The position numbers were made by a program, and so were the translations under genes. Positions 39,397 to 48,710 of a stretch of DNA of 64,000 nucleotides are shown piece by piece. The first letter of the stretch is position 1. Each line of letters begins with the position of its first letter. The notes under the pieces are model-generated. The model saw only the letters and a list, made by a program, of their open reading frames with translations. It searched no databases and was not told the origin of the DNA. Location of the stretch: contig NZ_CP139247.1 of assembly GCF_034087045.1 (NCBI RefSeq), positions 1,426,001-1,490,000 of the forward strand, in the 5' to 3' direction. The DNA is from Chitinophaga sancti. Lineage in GTDB: Bacteria > Bacteroidota > Bacteroidia > Chitinophagales > Chitinophagaceae.

Positions 39397-40836
39397 TTAA
39401 AACTCTGCACTCTTTGGAGTTCTTGGGAAAGGAATCACGTCTCTGATATTTCCCATACCTGTTACAAACAGTACCAGTCTTTCAAAACCTAAGCCGAAAC
39501 CTGCATGCGGAGCACTACCATAGCGTCTTGTATCCAGGTACCAGCTCATTTCTTCTACTGGCAGTTTCATTTCTTCCATACGTCTTACCAGCTTGTCGTA
39601 GTTTTCTTCACGCTGAGAACCACCTACAATTTCACCGATACCCGGGAAGAGAATATCCATTGCTCTAACGGTTTTGCCGTCATCGTTCTGCTTCATGTAG
39701 AAAGCCTTGATCGCCGCAGGATAATCTGTGAGTATCACAGGTTTCTTGAAGTGCTTTTCAACCAGGTAACGTTCGTGCTCACTCTGCAGATCTGCACCCC
39801 ATTCTTCGATCAGGTAGTTGAATTTCTTTGATTTATTTGGCTTACTGTTTTTCAGAATGTCAATTGCTTCTGTGTAAGTGAGACGCTGGAATTCATTGTT
39901 CAGTACAAACTCCAGTTTTTCGATCAGCCCCATTTCACTTCTTTCCTGCTGTGGTTTTTGCTTTTCTTCCTCAGCAAGGCGTGCAGCCAGGAATTCCAGG
40001 TCTTCCCGGTTATTTTCCAGCACATAACCGATTACGGATTTGATGAAAGCCTCTGCCAGGTTCATATTGTCTTCCAGGTCATAGAAAGCCATTTCTGGTT
40101 CGATCATCCAAAACTCAGCAAGGTGACGGGCTGTATTGGAATTCTCTGCGCGGAAGGTAGGGCCAAAGGTGTAGACATCACCGAATGCCATTGCTCCCAG
40201 TTCGCCTTCCAGCTGACCAGATACGGTCAGATTGGTCGCTCTGCCAAAGAAGTCTTCTTTATAATCAATGTTACCATCTTCAGTCAGGGGTGGATTTTTA
40301 GGATCCAGGGTACTTACGTGAAACATTTCGCCGGCACCTTCCGCGTCAGATGCAGTGATGATAGGCGTGTGCAGGTATACAAAGCCTTTTTCGTTAAAGA
40401 ATTTGTGTACAGCAAAAGCCAGTGCATGACGCAGGCGGAATACAGACCCGAAGGTGTTGGTGCGGAAACGCAGGTGTGCAATTTCACGCAGATATTCCAG
40501 GCTCGGGCGGTTTTTCAGCTGCAGGGGATATTTCTCACCATCACAGTCACCCAGAATTTCCAGTTCTACAGCTTTGATCTCTACGCGCTGGCCTTTACCC
40601 AGAGATGGAATTACAGTCCCTGATACGCTGATGGCAGCACCTGTGGTCAGACGCTTGATTAGTTCAGCAGAAACAGAGTTCTGATCCAATACAATCTGGA
40701 TATTATTATTGGTAGAGCCATCGTTCAAAGCTATGAACTGGTTGTTACGGAAAGACCGTATCCAGCCTTTTACCACCACGTTGTAGTCTGTTTTGTCGTC
40801 AAGCAGGATTTGCTTAACCTTCGTTCTTTGGCTCAT
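39397..40836 (-). CDS. asnS: Asparaginyl-tRNA synthetase
   Basis: A 479-aa class IIb synthetase that charges tRNA-Asn. The N-terminal OB-fold anticodon domain ([20 protein letters not shown]) precedes the catalytic domain. The motif 2 region is [20 protein letters not shown] and motif 3 is [16 protein letters not shown]. The [16 protein letters not shown] block and absence of the AspRS insertion favour AsnRS over AspRS. The full length is present with a normal C-terminus ([13 protein letters not shown]). It is a single-gene unit, divergent from rho across a 451-base intergenic region. Confidence 0.96.
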
Positions 40837-47851: not shown

Positions 47852-47890
47852 AAAAACAAAAAAGCTGTCCCGCGTGAACGGAACAGCTTT
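47852..47890 (-). terminator. Terminator of the tRNA-like RNA gene
   Basis: On the minus strand AAGCTGTTCC pairs with GGGACAGCTT (10 bp, one G-U) around an 8-base loop, followed by TTTTGTTTTT. It begins about 10 bases past the tRNA-like 3' end. Confidence 0.85.
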
Positions 47891-47899
47891 AAACCAAGG

Positions 47900-48042
47900 C
47901 TGTAGGGGGAGGGCTCGAACCTCCACTGGGCAGTTAGCCGCAGCACAAATAAGATTAGTGGTCAACCCATTATGCTGTGTTTATCCTGGACTCCCAACCC
48001 CCGAGACAAGAGGGCATGTCTGCCAAATTTCATCACCCCACA
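47900..48042 (-). ncRNA. tRNA-like RNA with a giant (~73-nt) variable region
   Basis: Read on the minus strand. The acceptor stem is TGTGGGG (48042-48036) with CCCTACA (47907-47901), 7 bp with one G-U, then T8-G9. The D-arm is ATG / CAT with a 12-base loop containing GG. Then come G26 and the anticodon stem CCCTC / GGGGG around loop TTGTCTC (anticodon position GTC, U at 37). The variable region (47997-47925) closes with TGGGAGT / ACT-G-CCCA and holds an inner CAGCA / TGCTG arm. The T-arm GGAGG / CCTCC has the canonical loop TTCGAGC. G is at 73, and CCA is not encoded. The D-arm resembles tRNA-Leu. The anticodon and variable region fit no standard tRNA, so a non-translational or specialised tRNA mimic is likely. 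Confidence 0.65.
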
Positions 48043-48127: not shown

Positions 48128-48159
48128 CAAATCTAAAGACATAACGGTTTTCTTGCAAA
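48128..48159 (-). promoter_or_regulatory. Promoter of the tRNA-like RNA gene
   Basis: On the minus strand TTTG (48159-48156), 20 bases, then TAGATTTG (48135-48128) followed by C. This is an almost ideal Bacteroidota promoter (TTTG-N19-TAnnTTTG). Transcription would start near 48121, giving a precursor of about 260 bases. Confidence 0.6.
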
Positions 48160-48175
48160 TTTTTTAAGAAAAATT

Positions 48176-48205
48176 TTTGAAAATTCGATATTTTTCAAAT
48201 ATTTG
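48176..48205 (+). promoter_or_regulatory. Candidate Lrp/AsnC operator
   Basis: TTTGAAAA (48176-48183) and TTTTCAAA (48192-48199) form an 8-bp inverted repeat with an 8-base spacer. The overlapping CAAATATTTG (48196-48205) is a second palindrome. The AT-rich inverted form fits Lrp-family sites, 40-70 bases before the regulator's own start codon. Confidence 0.4.
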
Positions 48206-48242
48206 CATGTAATTTTAATGCATTCAAAAACAAATTGTAAAA

Positions 48243-48710
48243 ATGAGCCACAATTTGAATATTGACAAACTCGATTTGCAGATCATCAGTGAAATGATGC
48301 ATAATGCAGAAATCTCCTACGCTGACCTCGGAAAGAAGCTTTTCGTTTCCGGTGGCACGATCCACGTTAGAATGAAGAAGCTACAAGAACTGGGTATCGT
48401 TAAAGGTACAAAATTACACGTAGATTTAAAAATGATCGGCTACGACGTAATTGCTTTTATCGGTATTTACCTTGAAAAAAGCTCCATGTACGACACTGTG
48501 GCTAAGGAATTGCGTAAGATACCTGAAATGGTACGCTTGAACTATACAACTGGTAGCTATAGCATGTTTGCAGAGATAATCTGTAAAGACATTACACAAC
48601 TTCGCCGCATACTTCACGATGAATTACAGAAGATCAAAGGCATTGAACGCACCGAAACATTAATTTCTCTGGAAGAAAGCTTTTATAGAACGATCAACGT
48701 TGTGGAATAG
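48243..48710 (+). CDS. Lrp/AsnC family transcriptional regulator
   Basis: A 155-aa protein. The N-terminal winged helix-turn-helix reads IDKLDLQIISEMMHNAEISY, then ADLGKKLFVSGGTIHVRMKK. A C-terminal RAM (AsnC_trans_reg) ligand-binding domain follows, with TTGSYSMFAEIICKDITQLR and ERTETLISLEES. These proteins form octameric rings and sense amino acids or other small ligands. Its own promoter region has AT-rich palindromes, so autoregulation is likely. Adjacent candidates for control are the tryptophan dioxygenase downstream and the divergent tRNA-like RNA. Confidence 0.92.
   Translation: MSHNLNIDKLDLQIISEMMHNAEISYADLGKKLFVSGGTIHVRMKKLQELGIVKGTKLHVDLKMIGYDVIAFIGIYLEKSSMYDTVAKELRKIPEMVRLNYTTGSYSMFAEIICKDITQLRRILHDELQKIKGIERTETLISLEESFYRTINVVE

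Follow-up and report, generated by a model that had tools for sequence, protein, structure and literature searches.

The tRNA-dependent synthesis of asparagine described for Deinococcus, Thermus and Bdellovibrio uses a non-discriminating AspRS and GatCAB acting on tRNA-Asn (PMC4206432). A 2014 survey in the same source lists 68 genera in which AsnRS, GlnRS and GatCAB occur together, 18 of them without an asparagine synthetase (Bacteroidetes among these), and considers the retention of GatCAB possibly vestigial in some delta-proteobacteria. In E. coli, the regulator AsnC activates asnA, and asparagine lessens this activation (PMC8707732).

The locus studied here lies in a 64,000-nt stretch of the Chitinophaga sancti genome (the window; contig NZ_CP139247.1, positions 1,426,001 to 1,490,000). 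From 48042 to 47900 its minus strand holds a class-II tRNA-like gene of 143 nt with a 73-nt variable region. A sequence-only reading had already placed a tRNA-like gene here, and its coordinates proved right to the base. Compared with the tRNA-dependent route as described in PMC4206432, aspartate on a U1-A72 RNA, GatCAB, and genomes with AsnRS and GlnRS recur, though what is shown there is proposed here. The known carrier is an ordinary tRNA-Asn, whereas the RNA described here is a separate molecule whose anticodon loop is of the Asp type and which has U37 and a large arm. Because this separate RNA bears an Asp anticodon loop, an ordinary AspRS could suffice, whereas the tRNA-Asn route needs a non-discriminating AspRS. 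The arrangement also resembles E. coli asnC-asnA, where the two genes are divergent with 151 bp between them; a divergent AsnC-type regulator is found here at similar spacing (200 bp), but where E. coli has the gene for asparagine synthetase A, this locus has an RNA gene.

Several unusual tRNAs are also related in form. Class-II tRNAs (Leu, Ser, Tyr) share the fold, the T arm and the Leu-like D arm, but differ in that the RNA has GUC, U37, G73 with U1-A72, and, where they usually have a short arm, a variable region of 73 nt. Allo-tRNAs and selC tRNA-Cys are likewise odd long-arm tRNAs, and GUC is among the 8/4 allo-tRNA anticodons given in PMC7609411; however, their acceptor/T stems are 8/4 or 9/3, whereas the RNA has a 7-bp acceptor stem and a 5-bp T stem, which speaks against an allo-tRNA. 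As in tmRNA, an insert is flanked by tRNA-like ends, but the D and anticodon arms are complete, and tmRNA is ruled out since RF00023 has no match in the window and the genome's one match over the cut-off lies elsewhere. Staphylococci keep tRNA-Gly copies for cell-wall synthesis, and the RNA proposed here would likewise be an amino-acid donor kept out of translation, though with another amino acid, no known transferase and a far larger arm.

Structure of the RNA and its homologues

The features of the locus are given below in window positions.

47856..47891, minus strand: hairpin with a U run resembling a rho-independent terminator (from sequence)
47899..47907, minus strand: acceptor 3' strand CCCUACA, G73 (47900) and encoded C74 (47899), from the G73-C74 counts
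47900..48042, minus strand: RNA gene, 5' end at 48042 and G73 at 47900 (from sequence, homologues and covariation)
47908..47924, minus strand: T arm GGAGG UUCGAGC CCUCC (from sequence; GGUUCGA invariant in alignment A1)
47925..47997, minus strand: variable domain, 73 nt, with two-sided changes in V1, V1b and V2
47996-47993 with 47930-47927, minus strand: stem V1 (covariation)
47988-47986 with 47933-47931, minus strand: stem V1b (covariation)
47977-47973 with 47945-47941, minus strand: stem V2 (covariation)
47985-47980, 47967-47958 and 47937-47934, minus strand: conserved loop motifs of the variable domain, GAUAAA, GGUUGACCAC and CUAA respectively
48003..48009, minus strand: anticodon loop UUGUCUC, with G34 at 48007, U35 at 48006, C36 at 48005, U37 at 48004 and C38 at 48003
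48036..48042, minus strand: acceptor 5' strand UGUGGGG, with U1, G2 and U3 (from host-copy counts and the identity roles in PMC9976931)
48130..48137, minus strand: promoter-like TAnnTTTG box (TAGATTTG; from sequence)
48243..48710, plus strand: asnC-like gene, 155 aa, divergent and 200 bp from the 5' end of the RNA (Pfam PF01037, PF13404)

The cloverleaf of an elongator tRNA is present, with a 7-bp acceptor stem (UGUGGGG/CCCUACA) and D, anticodon and T arms. UG stands at positions 8-9, the D stem is AUG/CAU (3 bp) and the D loop holds GG, the anticodon stem CCCUC/GGGGG surrounds the loop UUGUCUC with GUC at 34-36, and the T stem GGAGG/CCUCC carries the loop UUCGAGC. G73 is followed by C, and CCA is not encoded.

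A structure of 32 pairs in seven helices is paired in 99.3% of cells among 52 distinct copies. Two-sided changes were counted in 151 cells over 16 of the 32 pairs, so compensatory changes, which the sequence-only reading had looked to as a check, are present among the homologues. No shuffle out of 500 attained any of five covariation measures. Slid controls were needed because related sequences can beat shuffles without structure, and slid partners retain relatedness; with partners moved by 1-3 columns, just 47-58% of cells pair. Together with conservation in 79/79 genomes of the genus, this bears out the structural constraint that had been claimed for the gene. Thermodynamic folding of the window sequence alone was uninformative (z -0.77). 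The anticodon and D stems are nearly constant in the 52-copy set, and in the viral set the anticodon stem varies with compensation.

The variable domain consists of three covarying stems around the conserved loops GAUAAA, GGGUUGACCAC and CUAA, and inspection of alignment A1 by eye showed neither a tag nor a small ORF conserved within the arm. Host copies range from 109 to 211 nt, with tandem copies in some genomes. Short paralogues (L050, L056 and L122) do not have the outer part of the variable domain, and in viral copies of 87-96 nt the arm scarcely exceeds an ordinary class-II arm. The tRNA-like body is the common core of the family. A separate observation concerns locus L120, where two partial copies (946-1059 and 1264-1377) beside a full copy match model positions 47-150 alone; these cover the variable domain and T arm, and the tRNA-like 5' half is missing.

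Distribution in bacterial genomes and viral contigs

With a 146-nt query, blastn gave matches in all 79 Chitinophaga genomes (a second copy in 12), in 135/195 genomes of the family sample and in 101/198 of the order sample. With a covariance model built from 52 distinct copies, 60 of the 345 genomes of the class sample, belonging to 19 families, matched strongly (E 1.2e-17 or lower), as did three phylum-sample genomes from outside the class (G995, G1003 and G1058). A class genome was counted as RNA-bearing at a best E of 1.2e-17 or lower, which places one genome with a 77-nt match (G492, 1.7e-16) among those without, and because the class search used strict filters, short forms may have been missed in some of the genomes scored as lacking the RNA. 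Weaker model matches of 83-86 nt were taken as tRNA-Leu and left out of the counts. Carriers include Chitinophaga, Niastella, Pedobacter, Spirosoma, Dyadobacter, Algoriphagus and Cyclobacterium, and further carriers are Saprospiraceae MAGs and one Ignavibacteriales MAG. Duplicates were taken out before any copies were counted, and removals brought the host and viral sets from 47 to 45 (A2, two partial L120 matches dropped), from 140 to 79 (A3), from 107 to 106 (A4) and from 85 to 42 (A5; weak matches, mostly ordinary tRNAs or other tRNA-like genes).

Standard searches did not recognize the gene. ARAGORN run on the window did not call it, and Rfam at gathering score had no match for it, so the match to a described RNA family that would have told against the sequence-only reading was not found. 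At a relaxed Rfam threshold the best tRNA-type match was tRNA-Sec, with 12.6 bits against a gathering score of 47; matches this far below the gathering score rule out a known Rfam family. Ordinary tRNA matches in the C. sancti genome number 58, and its tmRNA lies at another place. Chance or a pseudogene is ruled out by the covariation and by conservation across genus, family and order. The family did not come up in searches of an open-access library of papers, and Rfam holds no matching family. A conserved RNA family that is new and absent from Rfam is strongly supported.

The RNA is also found on viral contigs. At least 120 IMG/VR contigs match it, and a covariance-model scan of 80 listed contigs found a strong copy in 79, the remaining one (L281) being truncated where its contig ends. 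A 636-kb phage assembly (LR756504), reached through a short viral copy, holds a member of the family recognized by eye. A blastn search with the window RNA and one viral copy against 50,697 phage records gave no matches. On the same strand, a large gene that looks like a terminase, though it has no Pfam match, follows in 32/79 listed viral loci, and a gene whose representative matches the P22 portal was found in 21/79. Because of these terminase-like and portal genes, many of the viral contigs can be taken as phages and not as stray host DNA.

Other phage genes of similar appearance were encountered. A match to a short viral copy in MT835737 is a phage tRNA-Leu and not a family member. Streptococcus phage phiARI0462 (L406:1446-1529) and 51 other streptococcal phage records hold a different class-II tRNA-like gene, called "tRNA-OTHER" in several records, directly before the terminase genes, a place that recalls the Bacteroidota phage copies. 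A second oversized type of tRNA-like gene occurs in phage tRNA arrays of IMG/VR contigs L291, L299, L303, L426 and L431. This type (for example L291:7682-7830) has the acceptor AGUCAGG/CCUGACU, A73, a Leu-like D arm and T arm, and a body of 115-163 nt whose middle varies from copy to copy.

Identity nucleotides, GatB and the divergent asnC gene

The bacterial aspartate identity set given in PMC9976931 consists of G73, G34, U35, C36, C38 and G10, with G2-C71 as a minor pair, and G1-C72 is said there to help E. coli AspRS position the 3' end. The same source names U1-A72 as the mark for amidation by GatCAB and G1-C72 and U20a as antideterminants. In the 190 distinct host copies, G2-C71, G73, C74, U35, C36, C38 and A72 are each present in 190, U1-A72 and U37 in 189 (C37 in one) and G34 in 188. 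Part of this set was fetched by a pattern that fixes D-loop bases and positions 34-39, so sets A3 and A4 are mute on those positions; in samples A1 and A2, which were not selected on the loop, the sole exceptions are two at position 34. The 31 distinct viral copies were fetched by a pattern that fixes U1-G2-U3 and the D loop and leaves the anticodon loop free, and two of them (L417 and L434) were read by eye as UUGUCUC and counted accordingly. Here U35, C36 and U37 are found in 31/31 and G34 and C38 in 30/31, with many compensated anticodon stems. Across 65 viral copies, G73-C74 and G2-C71 are invariant (65/65) and U1-A72 is present in 62.

The AspRS nucleotides G73, G34, U35, C36 and C38 are thus in place with exceptions in 2/190 host and 2/31 viral copies, these being two host copies with UUC or CUC for GUC, one viral AUC and one viral A38. 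The UUC and CUC, which are glutamate-type triplets, were noted in the short copies L140:1501-1611 and L142:1501-1616, where U1-A72 and G73 are kept. Two AspRS features are mostly wanting, as G10 is present in 19/190 host copies and G1-C72 in 0/190. For GatCAB, U1-A72 is there and G1-C72 and U20a are not; the base after C20 is A in 125/126, a count partly set by the search pattern and the choice of numbering. The sequence-only reading had remarked on a conflict between a Leu-like D arm and the GUC anticodon. That conflict is real, and G73 and C38 side with the anticodon, that is, with aspartate. Leucine identity is ruled out because it needs A73, and not one of the 190 host or 65 viral copies has this base.

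The anticodon loop also departs from what an elongator tRNA requires. In C. sancti, U33 and a purine at 37 are found in 41/41 distinct native tRNAs read, including tRNA-Asp, of which there are two, both with G1-C72 and one with the loop CUGUCAC. None of the 190 host copies has purine 37. At position 33, 153 of them have U, 21 have C, 10 have G and 6 have A. The RNA probably does not decode, because U37 and the variable position 33 are unlike all 41 native tRNAs. Position 37 and the unencoded CCA are in line with the earlier opinion that this could not be an ordinary tRNA. Judged from these nucleotides, the most economical reading is that selection favours recognition by AspRS and GatCAB and disfavours decoding.

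If GatCAB acts on the RNA, then GatCAB should be present in every carrier, and this prediction was open to failure. GatCAB presence was judged from GatB, which was over the cut-off in 254/345 class genomes. All 60 RNA-bearing genomes have it (each match E 1.6e-138 or lower), against 194/285 of the other class genomes (Fisher 2e-9, uncorrected for kinship). Sub-threshold GatB matches (G493, G560 and G590) were scored absent and taken as a domain common to GlnRS (compare G778). The RNA and GatB are jointly missing from nine genomes in four RNA-bearing families (G108 and G231 in f1; G474 and G576 in f61; G550 in f23; G450, G493, G560 and G590 in f37). The dependence runs one way, since GatB without a strong RNA match is common (194 genomes). 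Among 22 carriers tested further, GatB and AsnRS are each present in 22 (one AsnRS in two frames), and GlnRS is over the cut-off in 16. In these 16, C. sancti included, GatCAB is dispensable for Gln- and Asn-tRNA because GlnRS and AsnRS are both there. The other six have no GlnRS over the cut-off and may need GatCAB anyway. The tRNA-Asn of C. sancti also has U1-A72, so GatCAB could act on it if AspRS is non-discriminating. An AsnRS gene (TIGR00457, 586.7 bits) was noted in the window at 39400-40821 on the minus strand, about 7 kb from the RNA. Loading with Asp and amidation by GatCAB are supported by sequence logic and co-occurrence.

The protein of the divergent gene in the window has E. coli AsnC (2cg4) as its best PDB match (1.8e-32; next 5.9e-19), and a profile of 28 AsnC-like neighbour proteins gave the same best match (2.6e-50; next 2.4e-30). 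Judged by best PDB match, the neighbour would be an AsnC orthologue. Among the genome loci listed, 80/120 have an AsnC-like gene on the opposite strand upstream of the RNA, 141-383 bp from the D-arm motif (median 182), and in none is it otherwise placed; it is absent from 40/120 listed genome loci and from all 120 listed viral loci. Clustering of the genes at 80 of the listed genome loci found it in 52, including the Ignavibacteriales MAG, and apart from asnC no neighbour recurred in more than 13 of the 80. Of the two neighbours to which the sequence-only reading had drawn attention, AsnC does matter, but the link to trmB did not hold up, as a 235-aa same-strand downstream gene, a likely trmB homologue by length and place, was found in only 6/80 listed genome loci. 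On the whole that reading was partly supported, standing on constraint, on the non-ordinary tRNA and on AsnC and failing on trmB. Since both lie divergent from asnC, the RNA occupies the position of E. coli asnA. Asparagine synthesis under AsnC is the best reading of this context, with the odds about even.

The flanks of the host copies point in the direction of separate transcription units. A hairpin with a U run is found within 80 nt downstream in 134/188 host copies (control 10/178), compared with 2/64 viral copies (control 1/59). The TAnnTTTG box, which we take to be the Bacteroidota promoter consensus, lies within 120 nt upstream in 110/189 host copies versus 14/178 in the control; the count on the opposite strand, 33/189, takes in promoters of the divergent gene. 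These signals suggest that host copies are transcribed on their own. In the 5' flanks of 190 distinct host copies, position -4 is A in 91% and position -2 in 89%; the native tRNA genes have A there less often (19 and 29 of 46, respectively), and RNase P or the promoter may be the cause. Between the RNA and asnC, at 48149-48212, the window has A+T-rich inverted repeats with arms of up to 22 nt that are 77% complementary, a possible site for the regulator.

Proposed role and rival readings

The best explanation, to which we give a probability of about 0.5, is that this tRNA-derived RNA stands alone as a non-decoding carrier, and that AspRS and GatCAB use it to make asparagine, with AsnC in control. 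A tRNA-derived amino-acid donor had been among the earlier guesses, and the explanation proposed here is a donor of that kind. In this model the RNA would have a promoter of its own, controlled by an asparagine-sensing AsnC regulator encoded divergently, and CCA would be added to the transcript. AspRS would then read G73, G34-U35-C36, C38 and G2-C71 and load aspartate, and GatCAB would read U1-A72 and amidate Asp to Asn on the RNA. Pyrimidine 37, the large arm and, in some copies, a base other than U at 33 would bar the reading of Asp codons, an exclusion that would be useful because reading Asp codons would put Asn at Asp positions. Asn would finally be freed or passed on, and the RNA would do the job of AsnA, the product of the divergent neighbour of E. 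coli asnC. The model starts from the observed structure, conservation, identity nucleotides, GatB association and divergent asnC, and from these it infers every biochemical step (charging and amidation), the expression and the purpose. Class II synthetases approach a tRNA from the variable-arm side, so the large arm could hinder AspRS.

The same identity, non-decoding and GatB evidence equally fits a charged and amidated RNA that gives Asn (or Asp) to a dedicated transferase for envelope, peptide or lipid instead of to the free pool. However, no recurring transferase gene is found nearby among the 80 listed genome loci and AsnC as a neighbour is less simply explained, and we consider this use unlikely. 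A regulatory RNA that tunes asparagine metabolism and makes none, either as a decoy or gauge binding AspRS or GatCAB or as one read by its charging level, is about as unlikely. The identity nucleotides would serve binding too, and the adjoining AsnC and the conserved loops in the arm would suit such a role, but the encoded C74 and invariant G73, which are native-like, suggest a charged 3' end, and the tandem and viral copies better fit a bulk carrier than a gauge, though neither point is decisive.

It is improbable that the RNA is an odd-shaped tRNA-Asp that translates, whether for phage codon supply, for resistance to an anticodon nuclease or for deliberate Asp-to-Asn misreading. The GUC anticodon, U33 in 153/190 host copies, the six short viral copies that ARAGORN names tRNA-Asp and the location of some viral copies in tRNA arrays would all agree with translation. 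Against this, U37 is found in 189/190 host and 31/31 viral copies compared with a purine in 41/41 native tRNAs, position 33 is C, G or A in 37/190 host copies, native tRNA-Asp genes exist, and U1-A72 would invite amidation. Serylation, as in other long-arm tRNAs with G73, is very improbable. The main serine signs in PMC7609411 are indeed G73 and a long arm, but the bacterial serine set in PMC9976931 adds C72 and C11-G24, where the RNA has A72 (190/190 host copies) and U11-A24 (52/52), so serine identity is ruled out on these positions, and the kept GUC and C38 and the GatB association would be left unexplained.

A broader and more tentative proposal extends the asparagine carrier to much of the Bacteroidota. 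There, the asnC locus would control a ribosome-excluded RNA that makes asparagine and not a synthetase, which would explain GatCAB in genomes with AsnRS and GlnRS, and phages would have taken up the RNA as a metabolic gene. One guess for the viral copies is that they supply asparagine to phages through a gene made of RNA.

The data presented in this study describe a widespread structured RNA family, in bacteria and viral contigs, that has no Rfam match. The RNA offers a testable answer to the retention of GatCAB where AsnRS and GlnRS coexist. It looks built for loading with Asp, conversion to Asn and avoidance of the ribosome; in that case, a small RNA may have a part in making an amino acid. 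If the proposal is true, synthesis of an amino acid takes place on an RNA no longer used in translation, and this RNA is also carried by viruses.
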